A stretch of 21,404 nucleotides of DNA, from IMG/VR virus record IMGVR_UViG_3300022837_000114, positions 1-21,404 of that record. One strand, written 5' to 3'. Position 1 is the stretch's first letter. Every line of letters starts with the position of its first letter. The notes beneath the pieces were generated by a model. The model ran no database searches, was not told the origin of the DNA, and was given only the letters and a program-made list of their open reading frames with translations. This document shows, in pieces, positions 1,752-21,404 of this stretch. The DNA comes from a virus. Made by a program: the position numbers and the translations under genes.

Positions 1752-3614
1752 GTGAATATAATAACGGTAGACTTCGAGACGTACTACGACAAAGACATCT
1801 CACTACGCAAACTAACTACAGAAGAGTACGTGCGCCACGAAGGGTTTGAGGTAATAGGCGTTAGCGTTAAGGTGAACAATGAGGAAACAACATGGCTAAG
1901 TGGTCCACATGACGCACTCAAAAAATACTTACTCGCTAATTACGATTGGGAAAACTCTGCTGTATTGGCTCACAATACTATGTTTGACGGGGCTATTCTT
2001 AGTTGGCTGTTTGATATTCACCCTCGGGTATGGCTTGATACTTTGTGTATGGCACGCGCGCTACATGGCGTGGAGGTTGGCGGGTCGCTTGCGTTCTTGG
2101 CGGAGAAGTACGAGCTAGGGGTAAAGGGCACAGAGATACTCAATGCAGTTGGTAAACGGCGGGCAGACTTTTCTGTCGAAGAGTTAGATCGGTACGGAGA
2201 CTACTGCGTAAACGACACGGAGATTACCTATAAACTGTATAACAAGTTTGCGGCAGACTTCCCTGTTATAGAACTTAAAGTAATAGACATGACCCTACGT
2301 ATGTTTATCGACCCCGTACTAGAGTTGGATACGCCGAAACTAAAACTGCATTTGGACCTTCTTAAAGACCAGAAAGATGAACTCCTAGAACAGTGCGGGA
2401 TAGAGAAAGACGAGCTGATGTCTAACCCTAAGTTTGCCAAAGCACTCGAGGCGCTGGGCGTTACCCCACCTATGAAAACAAGTTTGCGTACTGGTAAGGA
2501 AGCCTTTGCGTTTGCTAAGAGTGACGAAGCATTCAAAGCCCTACAAGAACACGAAGACCCACGAGTACAAGCCTTAGTCGCCGCCCGTATCGGATTGAAA
2601 AGTACCCTAGAAGAAACACGAACCCAACGGTTCTTAGAGGTAGCGTCGCGGGGGAGGATGCCGGTTCCTATCAAGTACTACGCAGCGCATACCGGAAGGT
2701 GGGGCGGCTCAGATAAATTGAACCTCCAGAATTTACCGTCAAGGGGGCCGAACGCCAAGGTACTTAAGTCCAGTATTTGCGCGCCCGAAGGGTACTCTAT
2801 AATAGAAGCTGACTCCGCTCAGATCGAAGCGCGGGTTCTTGCGTGGCTATCAGGGCAGTCCGACTTGGTTGCCGCGTTCGAGAACGGCGAGGATGTGTAC
2901 AAGAAGATGGCGGGCGCTATCTACGGCAAGAAGGAAGAAGACATAGACGGACCCTCAAGGTTTATTGGGAAAACGACAATACTCGGATGCGGCTACGGTA
3001 TGGGCGCGGTGCGGTTTAAGGAGCAGTTAAAGACTTTAGGCGTTGACATGGAGCAGGAGGAAGCCGCGCGTATTATTAAGATATACAGGCACACGAACAA
3101 CCAGATCATTAAGTTGTGGCGGGAGTGTCAGGTAGCTTTGGAGGGCATGCTTGCGGGCGACGCTTACGCAATAGGATTAGGTGGGGTACTACAAGTAGTT
3201 CCAGAACAGAACGGTATACGCCTACCTAACGGTTTGATGATGCGTTACGGAGACCTCAAAACTTCAGAAGGCGAACGCGGACTAGAGTACTCATACAAAA
3301 CGCGTAGGGGAGACGTGCGAATCTACGGGGGTAAAGTAGTAGAGAACGTATGCCAAGCTATAGCGCGGTGTATTATGGCGGAACAAATGCTACTAATATC
3401 AAAACGCTACCCAATACTTCTTACCGTACATGACTCTGTGGTATGCTCTGTACCAGATAGTGAGCTTAACGAAGCAGCAGCTTACGTATCCGAATGTATG
3501 CGTTACACCCCCGATTGGGCAAAGGGCCTTCCGGTGCGTGGTGACGTGGAAACCGGAAAGAATTACGGAGAATGTACAGAATGGCGCAACCCACATGGTC
3601 CTTCAGCAGCATAA
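1752..3614 (+). CDS. polA: Family A DNA polymerase with 3'-5' exonuclease; Leu at the '762' position
   Basis: This 620-residue replicative polymerase lacks the 5'-3' exonuclease domain of bacterial Pol I. The proofreading domain shows VDFET (Asp7, Glu9), AHNTMFDG (Asp79) and YCVND (Tyr151, Asp155). Polymerase motif A is ADSAQIEAR (Asp354, in place of DYSQIELR). Motif B is RFIGKTTILGCGYG (Arg403, Lys407, Leu411, Tyr415). Motif C is TVHDSVV (His560, Asp561). Aligning Arg403/Lys407/Tyr415 with E. coli Arg754/Lys758/Tyr766 puts Leu411 at the Phe762 position. Catalytic residues are intact. It starts with GTG at 1752 behind AGGGGA at 1736-1741. The 3' end overlaps the next nuclease gene, so the two are probably cotranslated. 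It copies the phage genome together with the downstream primase-helicase. Confidence 0.95.
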   Translation: MNIITVDFETYYDKDISLRKLTTEEYVRHEGFEVIGVSVKVNNEETTWLSGPHDALKKYLLANYDWENSAVLAHNTMFDGAILSWLFDIHPRVWLDTLCMARALHGVEVGGSLAFLAEKYELGVKGTEILNAVGKRRADFSVEELDRYGDYCVNDTEITYKLYNKFAADFPVIELKVIDMTLRMFIDPVLELDTPKLKLHLDLLKDQKDELLEQCGIEKDELMSNPKFAKALEALGVTPPMKTSLRTGKEAFAFAKSDEAFKALQEHEDPRVQALVAARIGLKSTLEETRTQRFLEVASRGRMPVPIKYYAAHTGRWGGSDKLNLQNLPSRGPNAKVLKSSICAPEGYSIIEADSAQIEARVLAWLSGQSDLVAAFENGEDVYKKMAGAIYGKKEEDIDGPSRFIGKTTILGCGYGMGAVRFKEQLKTLGVDMEQEEAARIIKIYRHTNNQIIKLWRECQVALEGMLAGDAYAIGLGGVLQVVPEQNGIRLPNGLMMRYGDLKTSEGERGLEYSYKTRRGDVRIYGGKVVENVCQAIARCIMAEQMLLISKRYPILLTVHDSVVCSVPDSELNEAAAYVSECMRYTPDWAKGLPVRGDVETGKNYGECTEWRNPHGPSAA

Positions 3615-4255
3615 AAACTTTCGAGCAGTGTCCTAAGAAGTACTACCACTTAAAGGTAGCGAAAGACTACAAAGAAGACTTCAACACGGACGCCATACTG
3701 TACGGCAACGAGTTTCACAAAGCAGCGGAAGAGTACATAAGAGACGACGTAGAGCTAGAAGCTAGGTTTGACTACACACTTGCGGCTTTGGATAAACTAA
3801 AGAACTCGAAGGGCGAGAAGCTGTGCGAGTACAAGATGGGACTTACGGCGGACCTAGAGCCGTGTGGTTTCTTCGACAAAAACGTATGGTGGCGGGGGGT
3901 AGTTGACCTTGCCATACTTGATAGAGAAGCCGGTACCGCTAAGGTAATAGACTACAAGACGGGTAAGTCTGCGAAGTACGCCGACAAGGGGCAGCTAGAA
4001 CTAATGGCTTTGGCTATGTTCAAGCACTTCCCCGAAGTGAAGATAATAAAAGGCGGGTTGCTGTTCGTGGTATGCAACGCGTTTGTAAAAGACACCTACA
4101 CCATAGAACAAGAATCGGAACTATGGCAGAAGTGGTTGGCCGACTACGCCAAGATGGCGAAAGCCTACGAAGTAGATGTTTGGAACCCGCGTCCTACTGG
4201 GTTATGTAGAGCGCATTGTATAGTAATGGAATGTCCACATAACGGACGGAGATAA
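3581..4255 (+). CDS. RecB/Cas4-like PD-(D/E)XK exonuclease with a possible Fe-S cysteine cluster
   Basis: The 224-residue protein has the RecB/Cas4 nuclease order: SFSSIKTFEQCPKKY near the N-terminus, GNEFHKA (His46), RGVVDLA (Asp109), VIDYKTGK (Asp124-x-Lys126) and QLELMAL (Gln138, where many relatives have QxxxY). One N-terminal cysteine (Cys17) and three C-terminal cysteines (Cys209, Cys213, Cys218) are placed as in Cas4/AddB proteins that bind a 4Fe-4S cluster, although the C-x3-C-x4-C spacing differs from the usual C-x2-C-x5-C. It probably resects DNA ends during phage recombination or replication. I prefer ATG 3581, because GGAG at 3567-3570 lies 10 bases upstream; the ATG at 3572 is only one base from that site. 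It overlaps the polymerase gene by 34 bases. Confidence 0.88.
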   Translation: MAQPTWSFSSIKTFEQCPKKYYHLKVAKDYKEDFNTDAILYGNEFHKAAEEYIRDDVELEARFDYTLAALDKLKNSKGEKLCEYKMGLTADLEPCGFFDKNVWWRGVVDLAILDREAGTAKVIDYKTGKSAKYADKGQLELMALAMFKHFPEVKIIKGGLLFVVCNAFVKDTYTIEQESELWQKWLADYAKMAKAYEVDVWNPRPTGLCRAHCIVMECPHNGRR

Positions 4256-4257
4256 AT

Positions 4258-4695
4258 ATGATTGACTATGAAAATGATGAACAGACCAAGACCTGCGAAG
4301 CTTGCGGCGCCAAAATGGTAGCCTACCGACACAAACTAAACACGGGCATGGTAGTGTCGTTGAAGAGATTGTATGACGTGGGGGGTAGTGCGCACCTTAA
4401 TGCTCTTCAGCTAAACTATAATCAACGGTGTAATTTCCAGAAGATGCGGTACTGGGGTTTAGTTGGTAAGGGTGGAGCTGAGGCGGGGGTATGGATTATC
4501 AGCCAGTACGGTAAGCTGTTTGTAGAAGGCCAGTCCACGGCACCGTCACATGCTTGGTCTTATCGTGGAGTAACTATAGACAAAGACGACCCAGATGTAT
4601 CTTACTTAAGTTTTTCTGATCTTATGGAAGGGGGACCGCTAGCCTCCTATGGGAAACTTGCTGACTACGTAGACGATTCTGAACCAACTGATTAG
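4258..4695 (+). CDS. Phage protein of unknown function with an N-terminal CxxCG zinc-ribbon half
   Basis: This 145-residue frame starts at ATG 4258 behind GGAG at 4248-4251 and ends with TAG at 4693-4695. Near the N-terminus, CEACG (Cys13, Cys16) followed by YRHKLN looks like half of a zinc ribbon. The central segment (residues about 30-75) carries LNYNQRCNFQKMRYWGLV, which may be a winged-helix-like fold. From memory, comparable phage proteins of unknown function share it. The C-terminus is acidic and probably flexible. Context between two nucleic acid enzymes suggests DNA binding, but no function is assigned. Confidence 0.75.
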   Translation: MIDYENDEQTKTCEACGAKMVAYRHKLNTGMVVSLKRLYDVGGSAHLNALQLNYNQRCNFQKMRYWGLVGKGGAEAGVWIISQYGKLFVEGQSTAPSHAWSYRGVTIDKDDPDVSYLSFSDLMEGGPLASYGKLADYVDDSEPTD

Positions 4696-4705
4696 GAGAA
4701 CTACT

Positions 4706-4984
4706 ATGCCTTACAAGGACCCAAAAGATAGACCTAAGCAAAAGAACAAACCCGTCGGCAGTCCTGAGTTTGAAGCTAGGATGGAACGCCAACGCGCTAG
4801 GCGAAAGATGGACAAGGAAGGCAAGGACGAGAACAACAACGGCAAAGCCGATAAGCGCGAAGGCAAAGACGTTAGCCACAAGAAAGCACTTAGTAAAGGC
4901 GGTTCAAACAAAGACGGGGTAACAGTAGAAAGCTCCAGTAAGAACCGTGCTAGAAACTACAAAAAGAAAACGACGAAGAAGTAA
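4706..4984 (+). CDS. Small, highly basic protein with an HNH-like 'GKDVSHKKALSKGGSN' segment
   Basis: The 92-residue product has very high Lys/Arg content. ATG 4706 follows AGGAG at 4694-4698. Residues about 50-85 (REGKDVSHKKALSKGGSNKDGV, then SSSKNRARN) resemble the core of HNH-type proteins, with one His followed by a GG-N stretch and a downstream Asn. The cysteine pairs and the second catalytic His are absent, so nuclease activity is doubtful. Short basic proteins with this segment are, from memory, frequent in marine phages and are sometimes annotated as structural. It may coat or bind nucleic acid. A hairpin with a T run follows the stop. Confidence 0.7.
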   Translation: MPYKDPKDRPKQKNKPVGSPEFEARMERQRARRKMDKEGKDENNNGKADKREGKDVSHKKALSKGGSNKDGVTVESSSKNRARNYKKKTTKK

Positions 4985-5002
4985 CGCAACATTACAAAAA
5001 GT

Positions 5003-5040
5003 AAATAGAGGGAAGCACACAGCGGTTTCTCTCTATTTTT
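5003..5040 (+). terminator. 13-bp hairpin followed by a T run, possible intrinsic terminator or attenuator
   Basis: Bases 5003-5015 pair with 5026-5038 (AAATAGAGGGAAG against TTTCTCTCTATTT) with two G-T wobbles, around a 10-base loop. The 3' arm runs into five T residues at 5036-5040. It lies 18 bases past the stop of the basic protein and 17 bases before the SNF2 ATG at 5058. The GGAGA binding site of that gene comes directly after it. The stem is AT-rich at its base, so termination may be partial. Confidence 0.6.
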
Positions 5041-5057
5041 GTCCTCTGGAGAAAGAG

Positions 5058-6599
5058 ATGCAGATAGTAGACAACAAGGCGTTGCGGCTTAAAGTGCGTA
5101 ACCCCATGCAAATAACAACAGCAATACCCCGCAGTAAAAGTTTAGGCAACAACGAAGTGCTAGTTAAATGGGGTATGGAAGAAGCGCGGGTATTAAAAAA
5201 TCTAGGGATAAAGAACGTACCGTCACCAATTTTAGGCCAGTACAGTTGGGCCGGTAAGTTTAAACCGTTCGAGCACCAGAAAACCACGGCTGCTTTTTTA
5301 ACGATGAACCAACGGGCGTTTTGTTTTAACGAGCAAGGCACCGGTAAGACGGCCAGTTCTATATGGGCCTCGGACTTCCTAATACAATTGGGGATAGTAA
5401 AACGCGTTCTCATAATATGCCCTCTGTCGATTATGGACTCAGCATGGCGGGCAGACCTGTTCTCCTTTGCTATGCACCGTACGGTTGACATAGCTCACGG
5501 GGCTAGGAAGAAACGAGAAGAGATAATTAGAGGTGGTGCGGAATACGTAATCATAAACTACGACGGCGTAGAGATTGTGCGGGATGCGATTGACGAGGGC
5601 GGCTTTAATTTAATCATAGCGGACGAAGCCACACACTATAAGAACCCACAAGCAAAACGATGGAAGGTATTGAATTCTATAATAAAACCAACTACTTGGC
5701 TGTGGATGATGACGGGTACACCTGCTGCACAATCGCCGCTTGACGCGTACGGGTTAGCGAAACTAATTAACCCAAAGGCCGTACCCCGCTTTGCGGGGGC
5801 TTTCAAAGAGATGGTGATGACCAAGCTTACCCAATTCAAGTGGGTTCCCAAGGAAAGCGCTACGACTATAGTGTACAACGCACTTCAACCGGCAATTAGA
5901 TTTACTAAAGAACAGTGCCTAGACCTGCCGGAAATGACGTACGTAAAACGCGAGGTGGAACTAACCCCTCAACAGAACAAGTATTACAAAATACTTAGAA
6001 GTCATATGCTTACGATAGCTGCGGGCGAATCTATTTCTGCCGCTAACGCTGCGGTTAACATGAACAAGCTGCTACAAATATCTTGTGGGGCGGTGTACTC
6101 CGACAGCGGAGAGACCGTAGAGTTTGACGTGAAGAACCGCTACAAAGTATTATCCGAAGTAATCGCAGAGTCTAGCCAGAAAGTTTTAATTTTTGTGCCG
6201 TTCAAACACGTGATTAGAATACTCGCAGAGAAACTAAACAAGGACGGTATAACCAACGCAATTATTAACGGGGATGTGTCGGCCAACAAACGTACTGCCA
6301 TATTCAACGAGTTTCAAACTACCTCTGATCCTAGGGTACTGATTATCCAACCCCAAGCCGCAGCGCACGGCGTAACGCTTACCGCAGCAAACACTATTGT
6401 ATGGTGGGGTCCAGTGCCCTCTTTAGAAACGTACGCGCAAGCTAACGCTAGGGTACACCGCTCTGGGCAGAAACACCCATGCACTGTGGTGCAGCTACAA
6501 GGGTCGTCAGTAGAGCAACGTGTTTATAAAATGTTAGACCAAAAAATAAATGTACATACAAAAATGATAGATTTATACAACGATGTGCTTGATACCTAA
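5058..6599 (+). CDS. SNF2-family DEAD/DEAH-type helicase
   Basis: The 513-residue superfamily 2 helicase of the SNF2 class contains Walker A NEQGTGKTASS (Lys97), motif II ADEAT (Asp189, Glu190), motif III MTGTPAAQSP, and in the second lobe QAAAHGVTLTAANTIVWW followed by motif VI QANARVHRSGQ (Arg465, Arg468). Both RecA lobes are complete. Phage SNF2 helicases are generally thought to act in replication restart or recombination, translocating on duplex DNA. ATG 5058 is chosen because TGGAGAAAG lies just upstream and the protein then begins directly with the conserved region. The open frame runs back to 4947, but that would overlap the previous gene and translate through the hairpin. Motif II reads DEAT rather than DEAH, as is common in phage members. 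Confidence 0.9.
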   Translation: MQIVDNKALRLKVRNPMQITTAIPRSKSLGNNEVLVKWGMEEARVLKNLGIKNVPSPILGQYSWAGKFKPFEHQKTTAAFLTMNQRAFCFNEQGTGKTASSIWASDFLIQLGIVKRVLIICPLSIMDSAWRADLFSFAMHRTVDIAHGARKKREEIIRGGAEYVIINYDGVEIVRDAIDEGGFNLIIADEATHYKNPQAKRWKVLNSIIKPTTWLWMMTGTPAAQSPLDAYGLAKLINPKAVPRFAGAFKEMVMTKLTQFKWVPKESATTIVYNALQPAIRFTKEQCLDLPEMTYVKREVELTPQQNKYYKILRSHMLTIAAGESISAANAAVNMNKLLQISCGAVYSDSGETVEFDVKNRYKVLSEVIAESSQKVLIFVPFKHVIRILAEKLNKDGITNAIINGDVSANKRTAIFNEFQTTSDPRVLIIQPQAAAHGVTLTAANTIVWWGPVPSLETYAQANARVHRSGQKHPCTVVQLQGSSVEQRVYKMLDQKINVHTKMIDLYNDVLDT

Positions 6600-6662
6600 A
6601 CATAACTAGAATAGACTACATGTCGTTCCATTAAACTAAAACACTACACAGGAGATGTGCGT
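6600..6662 (+). promoter_or_regulatory. AT-rich 63-base gap; possible internal promoter region
   Basis: This is one of only four non-coding gaps longer than 60 bases in the window. It holds a TAGAAT hexamer at about 6608-6613 and a CATTAAAC stretch, and ends with GGAG at 6651-6654 serving the next ATG. No -35 hexamer at acceptable spacing was found, so promoter activity is only a possibility. Confidence 0.25.
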
Positions 6663-7076
6663 ATGAGTGAAGAGATTGCGGATGAGGCTAGATTAAACAA
6701 ACTCATCGGGGTGTACATAAAGATACGCGATAAGAAGTTGCAGATAGTCACCGAGATGAAAAAGCAAGAGGACGACTTGGAGGAGAAGCTAGGTAAAGTT
6801 AAGGCCGCGCTTTTAGCTCACTGCAAAGCAACAGGACTAGAGTCTGGTAAGACAGAGTTAGGGTCCTTCTACCGTTCAGTAAGAACTAAATACTGGACTA
6901 GTGATTGGGATTCTATGAGTAAGTTTATGCTAGAAAACGAAGCGGTAGACTTACTAGAGAAGCGCCTACACCAAGGCAACATGAAGCAGTTTTTAGAAGA
7001 GAACCCAGACCTACACCCGCCCGGCCTTAACACCGATAGGGAGTACACAGTAACTGTAAGGAGGAGTAAAAATTGA
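6663..7076 (+). CDS. Conserved phage protein with N-terminal coiled coil, unknown function
   Basis: The 137-residue protein begins at ATG 6663, eight bases after GGAG at 6651-6654; an in-frame GTG at 6657 is too close to that site. Residues about 10-50 form a charged amphipathic helix likely to be a coiled coil. The second half carries GSFYRSVRTKYWTSDWDS, then LLEKRLHQGNMKQFLEE and NPDLHPPGLNTDREYTVTVRR. From memory this block recurs in phage replication regions without an assigned function. The organisation is reminiscent of Gam- or Gp157-like accessory proteins, but I see no decisive motif. Its TGA overlaps the next gene's TTG start (TTGA at 7073-7076). Confidence 0.78.
   Translation: MSEEIADEARLNKLIGVYIKIRDKKLQIVTEMKKQEDDLEEKLGKVKAALLAHCKATGLESGKTELGSFYRSVRTKYWTSDWDSMSKFMLENEAVDLLEKRLHQGNMKQFLEENPDLHPPGLNTDREYTVTVRRSKN
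7058..7065 (+). promoter_or_regulatory. Strong Shine-Dalgarno site supporting a TTG start
   Basis: AAGGAGGA at 7058-7065 is close to a full anti-SD complement and lies seven bases before TTG at 7073. No ATG or GTG occurs in this frame between the site and the conserved domain, so it decides the unusual TTG start. Confidence 0.7.
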
Positions 7077-11622: not shown

Positions 11623-11663
11623 AGCCCCCTTCACGGGGGCTTTTTTTTTTTTTTTTTTTTTTT
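11623..11663 (+). terminator. Strong intrinsic terminator with a 23-base T tract between convergent modules
   Basis: A 7-bp GC-rich stem, AGCCCCC (11623-11629) against GGGGGCT (11635-11641), with a TTCAC loop is followed by an uninterrupted T run at 11641-11663. This is a classic rho-independent terminator for the plus-strand module. The final two T residues belong to the TAA stop of the minus-strand giant gene. On the minus strand the A tract precedes the hairpin and no U run follows, so termination there would be weaker. Confidence 0.92.
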
Positions 11664-14600
11664 AGTACTCTTCTCCCGCCGCTTCCATCCTAGCTCGCAA
11701 CACAGTTTCTCTACGTCTAGGGCTTATAGTCACTCCACCGAACTGCTTAGTAACGTCACTAGTTCTTTCGTGCTGCTTAAGCGACCGCTCTATAGTATCC
11801 GGGGTGATCGGGAAGTCTGGATTGTCCTCGTTAAACTCTTGCATTCTCTCGTTTATGTCCCCCATAGCACCGAAATCATTCGTACGCTTGGCTATGTAGT
11901 ATTCACGGAGCAGCTTAGTGCGGCGCGTATTCACGTTCCTGTCTATACGCTTATCTACTGAGTTTCTTTCCAACTGCTGTGTGTAGCTAGCAGGAGCGAG
12001 ACCCACGGCTTGTGCCGCTATAGCTAGCGGGTTTATGTCTTCGACTATTGGGTCGCCGCGTAGTGTGGTGACGCCTTCGGTACTGTATCTAGCCGACTTC
12101 ATTACGTTGCTTGCGAAGCTAGGCACCATCTTCTCTACGCCTCGATACACTTCACCTTCGTTAATTAAGCCGATCCCGCCAAACGCGCGATTTGCAACTC
12201 CGTACACAGGACCTGCGAATAGCTCAAGACCTTGCAGTACGAGACTATCTTGCTCTTTGTTAGGCAGACTACGGAATACCAAGTTGGTCATGCCTATACG
12301 TGGAGCTACATCTGCACCAGTAATATAGTTTATAGCGCCGGAGTATGCGCCTTCACTAAAGAACGTAGACGCCATAGTATCAAAGTCTTCGTCTTCATCA
12401 TCGAGGAATACAGTGTTCATAATGAACGAGATAACGCCGTACAGGGGCAGACCTTGTACCCCCGCTAGTAGCCCGGAAGTAGCGAACAGACCCGCTAGTT
12501 GTTTCTTAGCCACTGTCCTCTCGTCTCCGGTAAGGTTCTTATCGAAAGCCTGCTTAGCCATACGCGCCTGCAAGTAAAGCATCGACACACCAAAGCGCTT
12601 GTACATAAACAGTACACTACCAAGATTGCTTTGCGCAAAACGAGGAGCGGTTTCTGTAAGTGCGCCACTGTTTGTTAGTTCCGCAGCGTCCAATGCTCCT
12701 TGGGCTGCGGCTTCGAGGTCCGCATCTGTCAGCTTAGTAGCGTCGCCTTTATACTTTGCATCCGCAATGCTCTGCATTTCCAAATCAAACGTAGCCATAG
12801 CACTGACTTGTCGGTTAAGTCGCTCGCCTTGGTGGAACATATACCCCATAGTAGCATTAACCTTAGTCCACACAGTACTGGCGGGGTTTTCCATATCCAA
12901 GGCATCAGAGGTCATGGTCGTATTAGCTTGCCCGCGCCTATCTAAAAGCTCCGCTAGAATTTTGTAGCGCTGTAGTTCTGGGGAGGTAGCGGGGTCGTTG
13001 TAGTCCACGTTAGTAAGTGAAGGCCCTTCCGCAGCCGTACCGAATACAACATCACCGAAACCGGTCGTAGTACGGCTCTTTGGAGTAGCCATGAACCGCT
13101 TGTGGGCGTCGAACAAAGCTCTGTTTGCGTCTTTATATCCGTACTTGCCGCCGAGATAGGGCAGCACTACAATTGGTAGGTTAGTCCAGTTAACTAGCAC
13201 AGAGGACACGTTAAAGCCTAGGGTCATACCAAAGCCCGCAGACTTAAGGGCACGACTCCACGTAGCTAGCTGTGGGTTTTTAGCGAACTCTATGTACTCT
13301 TGGAAGTGCCCCACTGTCTGAGTAATATTTTGCTTATCTTTTAACGTAAGCCCCGGCTTGTTCATTGCCTCTTTCTTCTCAGCCTCAAACGCGATGTTAA
13401 GCTTAGCTAGTTCTGTTTCGTACTGTAAGTTTACGGTCTGGTTTACTATGTTAGGCATACGCTCTCTAAGTACTTTTATAGCGTCTTTTTTAAAACCTAA
13501 AACACCTTCTCGTTGCTGCAATGCTCTAGCCAGTCCGCGCTCAGGCATGGCGTCTAACAACATATCCAACACCATCTTCTCAGTTTGCTTGTCTAACTTT
13601 AGCGGCTCGCCGGTTTTGTCGTCTTTACGGGGCTTGCGCAGTTCCGCCAGTAGTTTGGCGGCGAAGCCGACCTCTACATTACCTTGGCTTCGTCGCTTGG
13701 CTTCGTCTATACGGTCGTACTCAGAGAAGTCGAACAGGGTTTCAGGGGCAACCCCCGCCTTGTTTACCTTCGGATCACGCAAGGCGTCCAAGATTTCGGG
13801 GTCGTTTAGTATGGCGTCTTTTGCTACCTGCCGCTGACGTTCAGACTCAAACGCTTCTTTGTACGGTTCTATATTGCCTGTATCTGGGTTAACCGCGCTG
13901 TACTGTAGCCAGTAATCGCCTTTGCGGTATAGCGGGAAGTACGGCTCAATGGCCTCTTTGGATAAAAGCTCGCCGAGAATCCTATCCTTTAACTGTTTGT
14001 TTAGGTTGGGGTCTTTCTCAAGGGCGTCTATTCGAGCTTCCAAAGTTTTCTTAAGCTCTGCGTACATCTCTGCGTAAGAATCCCGCAGGGTAACGTAGGC
14101 GTCTCGGCTAGTTTGGTCCAGCTTACTCCAGTACTCTTTCTGTAGCCTGTCGTACTTCTCTAACTTACCTGTGTCATTTTTGTAGTCCGAGCGCGGCTTT
14201 GACGGGTCTACCCTGTCCATCGTACTTGCGCCTATTACAGCATCCCAAATTTTCTTCTGCTCGTCCCTACCTTTAAACGCCTTAGTAAGCGCCGCCGCAG
14301 TATCGTTAGTTTTACGTAGGTACTTCTGGCGCGCGCCCGCCTTGTCTTGAATAGTATTCACTAAGTCTCTACCTAGCTTACTAATCGCAGGCATCTCTCG
14401 CTCTATAACGTTAGCAATAGCAGGAAGTGGGAGCATATCTAACAGTGTCTTGCGGGCAGTTCGCTCTGCGTCGCGCATAAACCCAGATACGGCGGCGATG
14501 TTCTCGGACGATACCCGGTCGTTAACAAACTTACCTAAGCTGTCCACAACCTTTCTCTCTTCTCCCTTGGCCGCAGCTAGCGGTAGAGCAGTAGCATTAC

Positions 14601-17600
14601 GGTACTCAGGCGCAGGAGAGATAAGATCAGTAACCAACATGTCCACCTTGTCCATAGCAGATTCTAACTTCTTGCTAGGCTGCCCACGGAATCGGCGTAA
14701 GATATTCTGGATTATGTTTTTGAACTTGTCCCATAGCGTAATTCTTTCGCCGTTAACGGTGATACCCGCCAACTTGGATTGAAAATTAGGGTTACTAAAC
14801 GCCTCAGCTACAAACTCGTCTAAATTAGTGGCGCCGTAAGCGCTGTCCAGTCCCGAACGTATAGACTCAAACAAAGCGCGCATCTGTTTGGCGGCAGGAG
14901 TATTTTTAGCAATCTCGTGAGAGGTCACGGCGTGCATGGCTTCGTGCAGGAGTACGTGGTTAGATAAGTCAACGTCTTGGTTTAACGTAATCGTATCTGT
15001 CTTGGGGTCGTACAAACCCGCTACCGGCTCACCGGATTCGCTGACTACATTGCTAGCCATAACGACTTTAGTATTACCTAAGCCTTTCGAGATAGCTGCC
15101 GCAACGCGCTGTACGTTGTTGTCTTTGATCTTTGCTAGTTCGTCTATCGCACCACGCAGGTCTCCTGCTTCTAGCTTAGCAATAACCTCACTGGATAACG
15201 GGGCCGAAGTTTGCGCCATACTGGCAGTAGGTAAGGGCATACCCATATTGCGGCGGTTGAGCCTAACTAGTTCTCCAAAAAACTCGTTGCTTTCTGTGGA
15301 CAGGTTCTGACTTACCCACAGTTCCGCAGCTATTGCGGCGTCTGTCTTCGCTCCACGGTCGGCTACGTCGGCAGCTAATCTGGACAGTGCTCCGTTTATG
15401 TCCTTGTCTTTGTTGAAGTACTCAAAGAAAGGATTGCTCTTGTCCAAAGCCTTTAACTTCTTAACGTCTTCGTCTATGTTGGCGGCACGCTTGGAAGCTT
15501 TCTTAGGCTTGCTATTTTTGTTCTTGGCTTTGCGGCTAGCTTGGTCGCTTTTGTCTTGTAGGGCGGCGGTTTGTGCATCTAGGTCTTCGTCTGCCCCGCG
15601 CTCAGCGGCTATGACTTCTTCGTCTACATCAACCTCAACTTCTTCTTCAACTACTGTCTCAGCCGTACCCTCAACCACAGGGGCAGCAGACCTAGCAGCA
15701 ACATCGGCCTTAGTCTTTGCTGTCTCTTTGGCCTTATCTTGCTCAGCTTTCTTAGCAGCTTCGGCGCGCTTTTTGGCAGCTTCGGCGCGCTTTTTGGCAG
15801 CTTCGGCGCGCTGTTTAGCAGCTTCGGCACGCTTTTTAGTTTCTTTTGATGTAGGGGCTTTCGTAGCTTCCGGCTCAGCAGTAGTTTTAGCTTCAGTAGC
15901 AGAAGTTGTTTTTGTGCCCTTACTCCACGCATAAATATCGCTTGGAAAGCTGTATAAACTTTCTGGGTCAATACTTTTACTAACTCGCGGCCCGCTGTCA
16001 TATACTTGTCTAGCTACCAGAACAGTGTTAGCAGGTAGTTTAGTAGCTGCGTCATCAAAATCACTAAAGCTAAAAGAGCGGGAGCCATCACGGCCTACAC
16101 GTACAGGAAATTCTATAACCCTATCTGCGTAGACGTGCAATGGTACTGTAGCGCCTGTTACAATACCCTCTTCGCCCAGCGTGCCCTCTATTTGTGTTTC
16201 CCCGCTTTCTAAAGTGCCACTATAACTGGCAGCGACGTAAGGAGATGTTGATGCAAAAACCGCATAACCCTCTCTAGGTTCCCCACGTAACGCTGTTTCT
16301 GGAATGCTTTCTTCACTAGCAATTCCTCTGTATAAAACTAGTGGTTTCCCGTCTTCACCCGTTAGTTTTTTTACAGTATCTGTAGTTTCTTCCGTAGTTT
16401 CTTTCGTAGCCGCTTGCTCTTCGGCTTTCGCCCTTTTAGTGGCCGCACCTCTTCTGGCTACGCTAGCGCGCTTGGCTTTGGTAGTAATCTCACGCTCTTG
16501 TGCCGCTATCTCGGCCTCTTGAGCACCGCCCTCACGAGTAAAGGCAAACTTATCTTCTCCGCGCAGCACTCCGCCTTCAGGACCGAATAACCCACCCTGC
16601 TCGGCTTTCTGAGTTTCTAACTGAGCAAGTACTCGCTGCGCTTCGGCAATCTGCTCGTCTACAGTGGGGCCTTCTGGCGCGGGCTGTGCGGTAGTATCGG
16701 GAACAAATCGGTCCTGTTGACCTAAAGGAGCGGCTGCTTGATCGCGTATTTCTAACTGTGCTTGGCCCGGTACTTCTTCGCCACGAGTTTGCGCACGGTT
16801 TAATGCCGCAGCTAGAGGACTAGTAACCGCCCCAGCCGCAGGAATAGTTGCACGGGCAGCCGCATCCGCCGCTAGGTTTTCTTCTCTCTGGGCATCACGG
16901 GCTTGCGCAAACGCTTCTTGGGCCTGTACTGGTGCGGCTTTTTGTTGCGCAGTAACTTCTGCTTCTTGGACGGCAAACGCCGCTTCTCTTTCTGCTACTA
17001 TGCGGGCTTGTTCTTCTAAAGCGGCGTTGTTGAGTGCTTGCTCTTCTAAAGATAGCTGTTGTGGCGCTGTGGCTACGCTTTCTGTAGGTGTAGTGGGGGT
17101 AGTAGCTTCTAGGTTCCTAAAAGCGGGAAGGTTAAGTAGTCCAAACACCGCTTCGCGGCGCGCAGGGTTCTTCTTAGTTGTGGGCAAATTTGCATACCGT
17201 ACAACTTCCGCTGCCGCCGTGCGGGCTTCCTCTGCATTTGATAGGTCGAGTTTTGGTAACTCTTTGGCAAACCGTGAAGTCTTTGGTATCCCTAGTTTGG
17301 TAAGGTCCGCTTGGGTTACAGTCGTTCTAGCACCTGCTTGCAACTCTGGGAACATATCTAACTGTACGCCCCCGGGATTCTCCGCACGTAGTTTGGCTAC
17401 TTCCACTACCGCTGCCGCTTCTTCTGCTTCTTTGGCCGCCAAGAAATCACGGGCGAGTTGGGCTTCTCGGGCTTGTCGTAGTTCTGGGGCGACTTCAGCT
17501 AGTTCTGCGGAGCGGGCACGTTGTGCCGCACGATAGTCGTCTTTGTATCTTTCTGGGAACGCCGTACCGTCTGGCGCTACGAGTATCGCCTCTTGTCTAG

Positions 17601-18585
17601 GTGGGGGTAGGGTAGGACGCTCTTGTGGGGGGACAAAATCGGTCTCGATCTGAGCGGGTTCTGGGGGTACAAGCTCGCCTTCTATGCCGGTATCTAGTCC
17701 AAGTTCTTGCCTTTCTACTACAGAAAGCTCTCTACTTTTTCTCGGCGTTTTTGGTAACGCTAACTCAAACAGCCCTTGTAGCAAGCCGCCTACGCCCGCG
17801 CCCAAACCGAAAGACTCTCCAGTACCGGCGAACGTGCCTGTGTTGGGGTCGTACACACCCTGTGCAATTAGGTTCTGGCCTATCTCAGTAACGGCTTCCT
17901 GTAGTCCTTCTTCGCCAGCAGATTGCCCGACCCTACGTAGCCTACTGACAACATCGGTAGCAGTTTCAGACCCTAGCGCTTTTTTGAGTACGCCGAATCT
18001 TTTTACAATAGCTAGAGGCGCAGCCATCTCTAGTGCGCCCGGACCCATACCCAACGCCGCCGCGCGGCTAATCTCTTCTTCAGTAGCGCCCGCAGCCACG
18101 GCACGAGTAGCGGCTTCACCCGCCCCCGCAGCAACACCAGTAGCGCCCGCAGCCGCAATCCCCGCTAAACCGAACGGAGCCGCAGCAAGGAAAGGTAGCG
18201 TAGAGCCAAGGCCCTGACTAAGTTTGGATACTAGCGTATCGCGGTACAGCTCTTCTGGCCCAATAGCCTCCTGTACTGCCGCTCCACCACGCGCAATAGC
18301 CGCTCGCGCAGCTTGTTCTTGTTCTTCAGGCAGTAAGAAAGACGCACCGGTTAGCGCAGACTCGCCTAGCCCAGCAACACCCGCAGCAATACCCCTAGGA
18401 ATAGTACCTAAATACCCACTCAAGCGTTTGTTTGCTTCAGGGTAATCCGATTCTCTAGGGGCTTGTTGTGCCCGATCTTGCGCGGATATATCTCTAGCTA
18501 GCTGCGTTAGTCTCAGTACGGCGGGCGTATCACCTACTGCCTCTGCGTTACGTATTGCACTGAGGACTTTATTTAGTTCGGCCAT
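11662..18585 (-). CDS. Giant polyvalent virion protein (2307 aa): ART-like and metallopeptidase domains
   Basis: A single open frame occupies a third of the window. The N-terminus (1-45) is helical and is followed by Ala/Gly-rich hydrophobic segments at about 130-165 and 174-193. Residues about 200-740 are mostly low-complexity Ala/Glu/Gln/Arg sequence. At 745-885 lies an ADP-ribosyltransferase-like domain: LVLYRGI (Arg753), FASTSPYVAASY (Ser779-Thr-Ser781) and VYDSGP. RAEAAKK heptads at about 914-942 predict a charged helix. HEAMH (1214-1218) with DEFVAE (Glu1257, Glu1261) marks a zinc metallopeptidase. The C-terminal 1000 residues include YFPLYRKGDYWLQY (about 1555) and a hydrophobic stretch at 2025-2062 before DDEDEDFD, typical of large polyvalent protein-associated regions. 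Such proteins are thought to be packaged and injected with phage DNA. ATG 18585 follows TTAGGTAG. Confidence 0.85.
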   Translation of the reverse strand: MAELNKVLSAIRNAEAVGDTPAVLRLTQLARDISAQDRAQQAPRESDYPEANKRLSGYLGTIPRGIAAGVAGLGESALTGASFLLPEEQEQAARAAIARGGAAVQEAIGPEELYRDTLVSKLSQGLGSTLPFLAAAPFGLAGIAAAGATGVAAGAGEAATRAVAAGATEEEISRAAALGMGPGALEMAAPLAIVKRFGVLKKALGSETATDVVSRLRRVGQSAGEEGLQEAVTEIGQNLIAQGVYDPNTGTFAGTGESFGLGAGVGGLLQGLFELALPKTPRKSRELSVVERQELGLDTGIEGELVPPEPAQIETDFVPPQERPTLPPPRQEAILVAPDGTAFPERYKDDYRAAQRARSAELAEVAPELRQAREAQLARDFLAAKEAEEAAAVVEVAKLRAENPGGVQLDMFPELQAGARTTVTQADLTKLGIPKTSRFAKELPKLDLSNAEEARTAAAEVVRYANLPTTKKNPARREAVFGLLNLPAFRNLEATTPTTPTESVATAPQQLSLEEQALNNAALEEQARIVAEREAAFAVQEAEVTAQQKAAPVQAQEAFAQARDAQREENLAADAAARATIPAAGAVTSPLAAALNRAQTRGEEVPGQAQLEIRDQAAAPLGQQDRFVPDTTAQPAPEGPTVDEQIAEAQRVLAQLETQKAEQGGLFGPEGGVLRGEDKFAFTREGGAQEAEIAAQEREITTKAKRASVARRGAATKRAKAEEQAATKETTEETTDTVKKLTGEDGKPLVLYRGIASEESIPETALRGEPREGYAVFASTSPYVAASYSGTLESGETQIEGTLGEEGIVTGATVPLHVYADRVIEFPVRVGRDGSRSFSFSDFDDAATKLPANTVLVARQVYDSGPRVSKSIDPESLYSFPSDIYAWSKGTKTTSATEAKTTAEPEATKAPTSKETKKRAEAAKQRAEAAKKRAEAAKKRAEAAKKAEQDKAKETAKTKADVAARSAAPVVEGTAETVVEEEVEVDVDEEVIAAERGADEDLDAQTAALQDKSDQASRKAKNKNSKPKKASKRAANIDEDVKKLKALDKSNPFFEYFNKDKDINGALSRLAADVADRGAKTDAAIAAELWVSQNLSTESNEFFGELVRLNRRNMGMPLPTASMAQTSAPLSSEVIAKLEAGDLRGAIDELAKIKDNNVQRVAAAISKGLGNTKVVMASNVVSESGEPVAGLYDPKTDTITLNQDVDLSNHVLLHEAMHAVTSHEIAKNTPAAKQMRALFESIRSGLDSAYGATNLDEFVAEAFSNPNFQSKLAGITVNGERITLWDKFKNIIQNILRRFRGQPSKKLESAMDKVDMLVTDLISPAPEYRNATALPLAAAKGEERKVVDSLGKFVNDRVSSENIAAVSGFMRDAERTARKTLLDMLPLPAIANVIEREMPAISKLGRDLVNTIQDKAGARQKYLRKTNDTAAALTKAFKGRDEQKKIWDAVIGASTMDRVDPSKPRSDYKNDTGKLEKYDRLQKEYWSKLDQTSRDAYVTLRDSYAEMYAELKKTLEARIDALEKDPNLNKQLKDRILGELLSKEAIEPYFPLYRKGDYWLQYSAVNPDTGNIEPYKEAFESERQRQVAKDAILNDPEILDALRDPKVNKAGVAPETLFDFSEYDRIDEAKRRSQGNVEVGFAAKLLAELRKPRKDDKTGEPLKLDKQTEKMVLDMLLDAMPERGLARALQQREGVLGFKKDAIKVLRERMPNIVNQTVNLQYETELAKLNIAFEAEKKEAMNKPGLTLKDKQNITQTVGHFQEYIEFAKNPQLATWSRALKSAGFGMTLGFNVSSVLVNWTNLPIVVLPYLGGKYGYKDANRALFDAHKRFMATPKSRTTTGFGDVVFGTAAEGPSLTNVDYNDPATSPELQRYKILAELLDRRGQANTTMTSDALDMENPASTVWTKVNATMGYMFHQGERLNRQVSAMATFDLEMQSIADAKYKGDATKLTDADLEAAAQGALDAAELTNSGALTETAPRFAQSNLGSVLFMYKRFGVSMLYLQARMAKQAFDKNLTGDERTVAKKQLAGLFATSGLLAGVQGLPLYGVISFIMNTVFLDDEDEDFDTMASTFFSEGAYSGAINYITGADVAPRIGMTNLVFRSLPNKEQDSLVLQGLELFAGPVYGVANRAFGGIGLINEGEVYRGVEKMVPSFASNVMKSARYSTEGVTTLRGDPIVEDINPLAIAAQAVGLAPASYTQQLERNSVDKRIDRNVNTRRTKLLREYYIAKRTNDFGAMGDINERMQEFNEDNPDFPITPDTIERSLKQHERTSDVTKQFGGVTISPRRRETVLRARMEAAGEEY
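15758..15841 (-). repeat. Four tandem 21-bp repeats encoding RAEAAKK heptads
   Basis: Units at 15758-15778, 15779-15799, 15800-15820 and 15821-15841 share a 21-base sequence. The first two are identical, the third differs near its 3' end, and the fourth differs at a few positions. In the minus-strand reading frame each gives one seven-residue RAEAAKK-type heptad. The 21-base period keeps the frame and the helix phase, so copy number could change without disrupting the giant protein. Confidence 0.9.
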
Positions 18586-18602: not shown

Positions 18603-20297
18603 TTATTCGGCGTATTTTGCTAGGTCATCCGCAGCACTAGCCGCACTTGAGCCTCCCACGGTGCTTGCTAGTTGGCCTTTGGTATCTCTAAATCTTTTTT
18701 CTATTAAGTCTTGGCGTTTCTTAGCAAGAGCTTCCGCGTACTTGTCTTTGTCGTAGCTACCGAAGAACCCACCGTAAGTATCTTTGAACTCTTCCGCTGC
18801 GCGTAGGAATTCTGGGTCGGAGTCTATCCTAGCCATAATGCTTTCTAACAGCGCAGTATCTGCCGCTCGCTCAGAAGCCAACGAATCGGCCAACAGTTTA
18901 CTACGGAGTTCTGTATCCCTAAAGCCATATTCTGTTTCAAGGAGGTCTTTCCGCATATCTCGATCCGCTTGAGCTTGTGCCATCTCGTCTTGGCGTGCCT
19001 GCTCAGCCTGATTTATCTTGCGGCTTTCCTCGGCAATCTTAGCGAACTCAAAGCCTTTAGACGCACCCGCGCCCCTACCCAGTATCTCGGCAATGTCCGC
19101 AGCCTTATCGGCAAACGGCTTAGCTTTTTGGAGGAGTCCAGCTATACCGGTTTTGCTTGGCGCAGCCTTAGCCGCACGCGGCACTTCTGGTAGCTGCATT
19201 AGCTTTTGTGCCATCGTTAGTTCTTCTTTTGGCATCATGTTGCGTACGTCATACTTCGCAGCTAACCCAGCGTCGTTCTGGGGCATAGTTGGCTTGCCTT
19301 CCCTACGGGCGGCGTTTGCCTCAGCCCTTTTAGCTGCTTGCTGTTCTAGCATTCTTGTGGCTTCGCCGGACTCTATGCGGTCACGCCTTGCCTTAACTAT
19401 TCCAGTGGGTACTGCGCCAGTAACATCGACTGTATCAAGCGACGCTAGCTGTTCGGCAGTAATCCCCTGAGATGGGGGAAGTACGTTAAGTAGATTTACC
19501 CCCTCCTCACCAGCCCGCTCTACTTCACCACGGCGGATTTCTCTTGCTTCTTGTGTAGCTCTTGAAGGAGAAAGTAAATAGTCTTTGCCTTTACCAATAA
19601 GCTCAAACAACGCACCCAAGGGTATAATTGGCTCGTCATCTCCTTCAACTAGATCGCCCTTCGCATAACCTTTAACATCACCCCCCATAGCCATACCTTC
19701 GCTTGGGCCGTACATCATATCGCTCACTTTTTGCTTAAACGCGCTCGGGAACTGCTCTTCAAACATGCGGCGCTCTAGCTCTAGGGCTTGTCGGCCTTCT
19801 GGGCTTACTTTGTCTGGGTTCTTGTCGTAGTAGTCAAACTTCTTGAGGCCCTCTAAGTACTTGAGCATCTGAGCGTTTTCTTCAGGCGACATCTGAGGAA
19901 TAGGGCCTTTAGAATTTGCACCTACAACAGACCCATCAGGACCGGCATAACCCACAATACCGCCGTTAGCCATACGCTGCATATTAGGAGCGGCTTGTGT
20001 GGGTAGCCCCATAACAGGACGGTTTTGCGCTTGCATACTGCGCTGTCCTTGTTGCTGTACGCCCGGAGCTAAACGCTGCGACAGGCTTGTCTCCATCTGC
20101 CCTACCACATTTGCGGGCATAGGCATTTGCTGAGACATATCTCGCTCACGAGCGGCGGCCTCTACCATCTTAGTAGCTTCCTGCAAAGCAAGCGCGTACT
20201 TCAACTGAGGATCAACACTCTGCCTACGCATGAGTTCTGGTACGCCCAAGTCTTTTAGTTGGTCAATCTCGTATCCAATGCCGCCGGTCATAGCCAT
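18603..20297 (-). CDS. Met/Gln-rich virion-associated protein of unknown function (564 aa)
   Basis: This lies 17 bases upstream of the giant gene in the same operon. The N-terminus has a short helical domain (IDQLKDLGVPELMRR, then YALALQEATKMVEAAA), followed by a Met/Gln/Pro-rich linker. Two related Gly-rich motifs occur, MANGGIVGYAG at 109-119 and MAMGGDVKGYAKGD at 202-215. The second half is Ala/Glu/Arg-rich and probably coiled coil (about 400-540). There are no cysteine clusters, catalytic motifs or membrane segments. From memory, proteins with these GG-YA motifs accompany virion genes in marine phages. It is probably an internal or ejection protein, inferred from its position between the giant protein and a virion protein. 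The ATG at 20297 has only a weak upstream site; ATG at 20291 is an alternative. Confidence 0.75.
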   Translation of the reverse strand: MAMTGGIGYEIDQLKDLGVPELMRRQSVDPQLKYALALQEATKMVEAAARERDMSQQMPMPANVVGQMETSLSQRLAPGVQQQGQRSMQAQNRPVMGLPTQAAPNMQRMANGGIVGYAGPDGSVVGANSKGPIPQMSPEENAQMLKYLEGLKKFDYYDKNPDKVSPEGRQALELERRMFEEQFPSAFKQKVSDMMYGPSEGMAMGGDVKGYAKGDLVEGDDEPIIPLGALFELIGKGKDYLLSPSRATQEAREIRRGEVERAGEEGVNLLNVLPPSQGITAEQLASLDTVDVTGAVPTGIVKARRDRIESGEATRMLEQQAAKRAEANAARREGKPTMPQNDAGLAAKYDVRNMMPKEELTMAQKLMQLPEVPRAAKAAPSKTGIAGLLQKAKPFADKAADIAEILGRGAGASKGFEFAKIAEESRKINQAEQARQDEMAQAQADRDMRKDLLETEYGFRDTELRSKLLADSLASERAADTALLESIMARIDSDPEFLRAAEEFKDTYGGFFGSYDKDKYAEALAKKRQDLIEKRFRDTKGQLASTVGGSSAASAADDLAKYAE

Positions 20298-20309: not shown

Positions 20310-21143
20310 TTATGGTGTCGGTTCAGGTGTTGAGCCGGGAAGGAAATCAAGCCCTAGGTTTTTGTAAAGCTCACCCAAAACTCCCAGATACCCCAACCCA
20401 GTGGACAAACCGCTTTCCCCAACAAAGGTATTTTCTTGCGCGCTAATGGGTAGCCCTTCGAGCAGGGACTGCTGATACTGAACTTGTTTGTACGGGAAAT
20501 CTCGCTCTTCCATAAACTGCGCGTAGTCCGCTGCAACACCCTGCTGCTCGATGTCTCGCTGAATACCGCCTGCACTTTCTTGGGCGGCAAGAGCATCTAA
20601 ACCGTAGCGGTTAGTCCTGTCCTGTGCCGTCTGTGCGCGGTCTTGCTCGGTATTAAACTGCCCCATACCTTGGGTGTACGCAGTCTGCATGCCTGTACCG
20701 TAGATGTCAGCGAGGTTTCTAAGCAGGTTGCGCTGTCCTTCGGACTCCATGATAGCCTGACGTGACCCACCAAAAGCACCTGCTTTACCTAGCCTAGAGG
20801 CGTTTTGCACGCGCTGTATTTCTGCCCGCCTCTGAGCTTCGGCCATTTGCGGCTCTAAAGCAGCGTTCATAAAGGGAGACATGTAGTCCTGAGCGGTACT
20901 GCCCGAGGTGAAACTCGTAGGGGTAAACCCACCCATCTGAGACGTAGGCACGTTAAGTGCATTAAGCCCTTGGAACGCTGTAGTTTGTAGGTCAGACTGA
21001 CCCGCAGTAAGGGGGCCGCCATACGCTTGATACGGTTGGTTTGCTAGTGCTTCGCCTTTACCGAGCATGCCCGTTACGTAGGGGGCAGCCCAACCGGATA
21101 GGGACTCTGTGGTACTTGCTGGTGCGCCTATTGGATCAGCCAT
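20310..21143 (-). CDS. Virion protein, probable internal or ejection protein (277 aa)
   Basis: The protein opens with SLSGWAAPYVTGMLGKGEALANQPYQAYGGPLTAGQSDLQ-type sequence. Then come DYMSPFMNAALEPQMAEAQ and SRLGKAGAFGGSRQAIM at about residues 85-130, followed by long Gln/Arg/Ala-rich helices up to about 225 and a hydrophobic GLGYLGVLGELY near the C-terminus. This architecture is familiar from marine podovirus-like virion modules, where it is often labelled an internal virion or tail protein. The GGSR-containing segment is the most diagnostic part. Upstream AAGGAAAG, 4 bases before the ATG on the minus strand, supports the start at 21143. Gaps to neighbours are 10 and 12 bases, so it is cotranscribed with them. 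Confidence 0.8.
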   Translation of the reverse strand: MADPIGAPASTTESLSGWAAPYVTGMLGKGEALANQPYQAYGGPLTAGQSDLQTTAFQGLNALNVPTSQMGGFTPTSFTSGSTAQDYMSPFMNAALEPQMAEAQRRAEIQRVQNASRLGKAGAFGGSRQAIMESEGQRNLLRNLADIYGTGMQTAYTQGMGQFNTEQDRAQTAQDRTNRYGLDALAAQESAGGIQRDIEQQGVAADYAQFMEERDFPYKQVQYQQSLLEGLPISAQENTFVGESGLSTGLGYLGVLGELYKNLGLDFLPGSTPEPTP

Positions 21144-21153
21144 GATTCTTTCC

Positions 21154-21404
21154 TTACGCTAAAAATTTCTGGGGGTTAATCTGTCGCCCCTGTTCTTTGG
21201 TTCCAGTACGGGCTTTCCGTATCCTGTCCATCATACCGTATAGCTGTTGCGCGCCTGAGTCTGAATTTCCGTTACCTAAGTGGCTGACTACATCAGCAGG
21301 TATGACAAACTCCCCATCACTAAGGGCAGCGGGTTGTGCGTTGTCTATTGTAGCGGGGATTTGGTCCGCCATACCATCAGTACTTCCGCCTAAATAATAC
21401 CCTT
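21154..21404 (-). CDS. C-terminal part of a virion-module protein, truncated by the window edge
   Basis: The frame stays open to the right edge of the window. Upstream of the internal ATG at 21372 the codons read GYYLGGSTDG with no stop, and the whole C-terminal block then reads MADQIPATIDNAQPAALSDG, EFVIPADVVSHLGNGNSDSG and a helical MMDRIRKARTG. This block is, from memory, a recurring C-terminus of longer phage proteins next to virion genes, so the ATG at 21372 is probably internal and the real start lies beyond the window. The stop is TAA at 21156-21154. Function unknown. Confidence 0.75.
   Translation of the reverse strand, partial: GYYLGGSTDGMADQIPATIDNAQPAALSDGEFVIPADVVSHLGNGNSDSGAQQLYGMMDRIRKARTGTKEQGRQINPQKFLA

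Follow-up and report, generated by a model that had tools for sequence, protein, structure and literature searches.

What might a single phage polypeptide of 2307 residues accomplish by joining an ADP-ribosyltransferase (ART)-like domain, a putative metallopeptidase and a long C-terminal region of polyvalent type? The question is raised by a 21.4-kb virus record (G000; IMG/VR record IMGVR_UViG_3300022837_000114), of which all 21,404 nucleotides are referred to here as the window. Injection of polyvalent proteins was predicted in 2017 on the basis of domain content and genomic context (Iyer et al., PMC5512222), and an initial annotation of the window described the protein as one that combines several effector-like domains and may serve host takeover, a model in which both the ART and the metallopeptidase would be weapons against host proteins. 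In this work, we compared the gene, its neighbours and its relatives, and we consider it reasonably probable that the product is a virion-internal large ejection protein, the counterpart of T7 gp16 or internal virion protein D, which carries an ART as cargo.

The giant gene and its neighbourhood

The gene starts at position 18585, ends with a stop codon at 11662-11664 and contains zero internal stops on the minus strand, the plus strand across the same interval being stop-rich; the coordinates reported initially (11662-18585) were correct, and the strand was absent from that report. The IMG/VR contig L001 spans the full gene and contig L002 holds its last 4.2 kb, both at >99.5% nucleotide identity and with one 15-bp insertion, which speaks against an artefact of assembly. 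The window gene differs from that of L001 by four substitutions and this 15-bp indel; they all lie within the linkers flanking the ART cassette (15358-16461, aa 709-1076), and every one of them alters the protein. The whole 2307-aa protein gave zero Pfam matches at E<1, and the evidence must therefore come from its segments and its relatives; a single-sequence phmmer search against PDB yielded chance matches only (E 0.55 and above). The features recognised by these means are collected in Table 1.

Table 1. Features of the giant gene and of the genes upstream of it, in window coordinates.
Feature	Position	Strand	Evidence
Giant polyvalent / large ejection-type protein gene	11662..18585	-	Open frame, no stops; 156 related ORFs
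Tail-700 / PLxRFG C-terminal domain (NF032893), aa 1680-2291	11713..13548	-	NCBIfam, 324.5 bits (cut-off 100)
LPD39 (PF18858), aa 1370-1521	14023..14478	-	Segment Pfam, 31.5 bits (cut-off 27)
Zincin-like metallopeptidase domain, aa 1129-1330	14596..15201	-	A8 profile against PDB
HEAMH zinc-binding motif, aa 1214-1218	14932..14946	-	Conserved in relatives
AEAAKKR heptad repeats, aa 920-946	15748..15828	-	Within charged linker aa 890-1040
Mobile ART cassette, 519 bp	15874..16392	-	95% nucleotide identity to L164; absent from L008/L009
ART domain, aa 743-890	15916..16359	-	Alignment A4; L037 homologue; model m8f875aa1c376
Low-complexity Ala/Glu linker, aa 300-735	16381..17688	-	Composition; few relatives match
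Ala/Gly-rich hydrophobic N-terminal block, aa 50-260	17806..18438	-	BLAST matches in relatives; hydropathy
564-aa gene directly upstream	18603..20297	-	Matched at the corresponding position in 14 loci
277-aa protein gene, PHROG 4287 'DNA ejection protein'	20310..21143	-	E 1.7e-4; upstream in 57 loci
5'-truncated upstream gene (82 aa), same late operon	21154..21402	-	Homologues upstream in 55 loci

In the loci of the relatives, genes are ordered 82-277-(sometimes 564-like)-giant, the giant gene being the last of a block that converges on the primase, SSB-like, helicase and polA genes. The primase was found in 105 of 154 loci and the three upstream genes in the numbers given in Table 1, many loci being too short to include every gene. 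The homologue of the 277-aa protein in L178 matches PHROG 4287 at 1.9e-7, and further upstream this contig encodes a head-and-packaging structural protein and a tail-fibre-like protein; L177 likewise has a head-and-packaging protein upstream. This synteny, together with the ejection-protein similarity, supports a late-gene (virion) position for the giant gene. The 564-aa protein, for which neither a family match nor a phage match was found, is probably a second protein of the ejection operon. At the left end of the window, cell-wall hydrolase-like and thermonuclease-like small genes (201-608 and 1343-1750) were recognised by eye.

A conserved chassis with a zincin-like domain

LPD39 and tail-700 span most of the C-terminal 900 residues, and both score above curated cut-offs, in agreement with the long polyvalent-type region noticed initially. 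With the ART and the zincin, they place several disparate domains in one polypeptide of 2307 aa, one of these being a polyvalent-specific LPD (LPD39), and the gene is located near late or virion genes, all of which supports membership among the polyvalent proteins. The best PHROG match of the protein is 10089 'DarB-like antirestriction' (2.2e-56), and several GenBank relatives are annotated accordingly, which would suggest a protein shielding incoming DNA from restriction; however, only the common C-terminal part is matched (profile positions 3952-4642 of 4647), the Pfam and NCBIfam searches revealed neither a methylase nor a helicase or ParB domain in the window protein, and we regard such a function as very improbable.

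A 1198-aa model of the constant C-terminal half (mean pLDDT 80), in which tail-700 is mostly helical, matched many polyvalent proteins in BFVD, as well as 'Internal virion protein D' from the Roseobacter phages CRP-5 (5.6e-8) and CRP-4 (1.3e-7), these with low TM, an RSB3 internal core protein (4.8e-9) and other structural proteins (E about 1e-7 to 1e-10, TM 0.2-0.4). Foldseek comparison of this model with PDB returned only long helical proteins (best E 0.12), rejected as chance, and the match of an LPD39 plus tail-700 profile (A9) to IpaD in PDB (0.023) was rejected as coiled-coil similarity. Since the PDB Foldseek search was empty, the link between the chassis and gp16 is drawn from predicted viral models (TM 0.2-0.4) and from a short zincin match.

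This zincin match concerns the HExxH metallopeptidase motif reported by the initial annotation, which occurs once in the protein (0.0025 expected in shuffled copies). Of 64 relatives, 63 retain residues H1214, E1215 and H1218, and 60 retain a downstream Glu (E1261), as a zincin would have for a further ligand; E1257 is conserved at least 90%, and both glutamates are candidates for the third ligand. The segment scores under Pfam cut-offs. A 64-sequence profile, when compared with PDB, found 9sfn_G 'Internal virion protein' as its best match (1.5e-6), followed by a modest match (1e-4) to 8vb2_A, which is gp48, a tetrameric ejection protein from Pectobacterium phage PhiM1, and by the lethal factor zincin domain (0.002); conservation and matches to both zincins and podovirus ejection proteins thus bear out the metallopeptidase assignment. 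No publication naming PDB 9sfn was found in a literature search. Cryo-EM has located PhiM1 gp48 in the core ejectosome within the capsid, and its Asp268-Asp528 region was described as endolysin/exotransglycosidase-like (PMC11440229). At approximately residues 380-511 of 8vb2 chain A, an HEAAH motif and a downstream EF element align to the window zincin profile, and the Asp268-Asp528 region may, by this alignment, be a zincin-like domain.

Metallopeptidases were allowed as effectors by Iyer et al. (PMC5512222), and the lethal factor match could also be taken to favour two weapons against host proteins. Conversely, the zincin is constant, with matches in about 110 of 156 relatives irrespective of their cargo, and structural ejection proteins head its PDB matches; on these grounds we assign the metallopeptidase to the conserved chassis rather than to the variable effectors. 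Pfam and NCBIfam revealed no other variable effector besides the ART in the window protein, and a multi-effector takeover protein appears unlikely to us. The description "several effector-like domains" was overstated, because the zincin, the hydrophobic ends, LPD39 and tail-700 belong to the chassis and only the ART is variable, that is, one recognisable cargo enzyme on a conserved ejection chassis.

The N-terminal block was matched by BLAST in about 15-34 of 156 relatives, mostly at 35-57% identity, and includes an Ala/Gly-rich hydropathy peak at aa 130-148; it probably interacts with the membrane. Hydrophobic Ala/Gly-rich segments had been proposed near both ends of the protein, of which the N-terminal one stands, whereas the C-terminal one (aa ~2030-2060) is discernible in the sequence but falls below the hydropathy threshold. 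The linker at aa 300-735 was matched in only 5-9 of 156 relatives and contains a short conserved patch (aa 594-675). The heptad-repeat charged helix described initially is represented by the AEAAKKR repeats, and the 5-residue insertion of L001 is found slightly downstream of them in the same linker.

A mobile and non-canonical ADP-ribosyltransferase

The ART segment of the window had no match in Pfam or other libraries. Its homologue in L037, a phage contig located via the C-terminus of the giant protein, is 48% identical to it and passes the Pfam ART-PolyVal cut-off (33.7 bits, cut-off 31.2, positions 1-140 of 140), and a profile built from these two sequences retrieves canonical domains of ART-PolyVal at about 5e-6. 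An AlphaFold2 model based on 9 sequences was of moderate confidence (pLDDT 69), and its Foldseek matches were the PARP/tankyrase, ParT and diphtheria-toxin ART folds, all weak (best E 0.16). The L037 homologue, along with weak model matches that are all ART folds, upholds the ADP-ribosyltransferase-like domain of the initial annotation.

The active site of ART-PolyVal (PF18760; Tox-ART-HYD2 clade, Iyer et al. 2017) is H-Y-D (PMC5512222). Alignment A4 indicates R753, S779-T780-S781 and D883 as candidate active-site residues. The strand-1 H position is occupied by R (R753) in 4/4 independent sequences (window/L164, L165, L037 and L167), all of which also display 'FAS' in the strand-2 region and D at strand 5 (D883), so that the same R, S and D positions are kept throughout. 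The subfamily shares with ART-PolyVal the entry motif WFGDSKVVD..G.PLV.Y[HR]G, the strand-5 D and, in L037 and L165, the exit motif KSA.GN.GT; it differs in the strand-1 residue, in 'FAS' at the strand-2 Tyr region and in the loss of the exit motif from the window and L164. Because it has R753 in place of H and no Tyr aligned at the strand-2 position, the window ART is, as far as sequence can tell, a related but non-canonical variant of ART-PolyVal, and without the canonical strand-1 His it could have altered chemistry or be inactive. Uniqueness of the H-to-R change to this subfamily was considered and dropped, as an ART-PolyVal-like domain in L080 also carries R at strand 1; the 13 other such domains in the loci carry H.

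The DNA comparison indicates that this ART is a mobile cassette, a half-kilobase piece recently exchanged between quite different phages. The cassette aligns without gaps to L164:6571-7089, whereas outside it the giant proteins of the window and L164 are ~25% identical in amino acids (C-terminal halves), the neighbouring genes being 77% identical in nucleotides. The nearest relatives, L008 and L009, with 84% protein identity over the C-terminal half, are devoid of the ART; their homology to the window ends at 16386 and restarts at 15540. Further, the GC content of the cassette is 0.447, compared to 0.511 for the whole gene. A near-identical cassette within otherwise very different giant proteins constitutes direct DNA evidence of cargo exchange, and its location marks a site that would tolerate cargo without breaking ejection.

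A decaying or selfish passenger without function, inserted by accident and tolerated in a disordered linker, might also leave such a pattern, given the replaced strand-1 His, the loss of the C-terminal KSAxGNxG motif in the window and L164, and the absence of the ART from the closest relatives. However, the frame is undamaged, the R, S and D residues are kept in four independent sequences, and the window and L164 cassettes display dN 0.031 and dS 0.122 (dN/dS 0.25), consistent with purifying selection, which disfavours plain decay; we therefore find a functionless passenger quite improbable, and prefer the ART as a selected cargo.

A profile-guided scan recovered only five IMG/VR contigs with this ART subfamily, and no additional carrier came up with an exact 32-base probe. 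When the ART was used by itself as a tblastn query, 50,697 phage records gave no match. The ART profile found no relative among 84,980 bacterial and archaeal species, each represented by one genome, in a search that required short peptide patterns and would miss distant relatives. The ART is placed in a longer protein in L165 and after the zincin, not before it, in L037, and the particular domain order emphasised by the initial annotation, which we also considered as a specific trait of the window protein, was for this reason dropped.

Delivery, cargo variety and known systems

LPD39/tail-700, the zincin matches in PDB, the internal virion protein D matches in BFVD, the late synteny and the adjoining PHROG 4287 protein are the reasons for which we favour a large ejection protein. 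Among podovirus large ejection proteins, a zincin-like HExxH is common to PhiM1 gp48, by profile match, and to N4 vRNAP, an ejected virion protein in which an HExxH domain precedes a large, helical C-terminal one (PMC12633501). The likeness to T7 gp16 or internal virion protein D is a predicted-model match, and the window gene is likewise the last of an ejection-type operon. The window protein is ~1,000 aa longer than PhiM1 gp48 (1263 aa) and carries an ART, and no transglycosylase or RNA polymerase was found in it. No report of virion mass spectrometry on a large polyvalent protein turned up in a literature search. T4 Alt, a head-packaged and injected ART, serves as a model (PMC5512222); it is of the R-S-E type and lacks a polyvalent chassis.

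According to the mechanism we propose, the giant protein would be made late, encoded last in the ejection operon, with the hydrophobic N-terminal block and the zincin-LPD39-tail-700 half forming a conserved delivery chassis, and with the low-complexity Ala/Glu/Lys linker permitting the insertion of cargo domains; the cargo in this phage would be an ART-PolyVal-type ADP-ribosyltransferase recently acquired as half a kilobase of DNA. The protein would be packed in the head core and then threaded through the tail before the DNA, after which the chassis would insert into the envelope. The zincin would possibly free the ART by self-cleavage, and the ART, on reaching the cytoplasm, would modify a host molecule with NAD+ as infection starts.

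The relatives display a wider variety of cargo. Tail-700 was matched in about 150 of the 156 related ORFs and the ART region in 1 of them. Pfam detected ART-PolyVal in none of 39 closer relatives, and among 24 others, mostly more distant, it detected ART-PolyVal in 7, a small methyltransferase in 6, InPase in 5, and single cases of RadC, ddrB-ParB, SLT and others, as well as several LPDs. Gp28 of Pseudomonas phage Skulduggery, VPAG_00062 of Vibrio phage douglas 12A4 and EVB30_085 of Rhizobium phage RHph_TM27B are homologous in the C-terminal part (25-28% identity) and are encoded near structural genes, as here, with different N-terminal cargo (an InPase-like segment, by eye, in the Rhizobium phage); EVB30_085 resembles the window protein further in its zincin and in the primase encoded next to it.

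A broader proposal, which we hold tentatively and at slightly less than even confidence, is that LPD39/tail-700 proteins in general are the gp16/internal virion protein D component of the ejectosome with an exchangeable effector slot, and that the ejection machine itself would therefore be the cargo carrier; the cargo here would be an R-type (R, S, D) ART, a half-kilobase cassette jumping between distant phages, possibly with chemistry or a target unlike those of H-Y-D enzymes. Connecting the shared zincin and C-terminal chassis of polyvalent proteins to ejectosome proteins of solved structure provides the delivery idea with a concrete machine. The mobility of the ART cassette, the strand-1 R in four independent members, and the ejectosome placement from gene order and predicted structure are new here.

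Three further observations concern this protein family. An FtsK_gamma DNA-binding domain (best E 1.8e-8) is present in three close relatives (alignment A6), as other cargo on the same chassis. In L056 (3673-11979), one giant protein of 2769 aa contains three ART-PolyVal-like domains. In L131, an 801-aa ART ORF (1-2403) ends just within the start of a 1521-aa giant ORF (2349-6911), and from this arrangement we read the pair as a split or frameshifted polyvalent gene.
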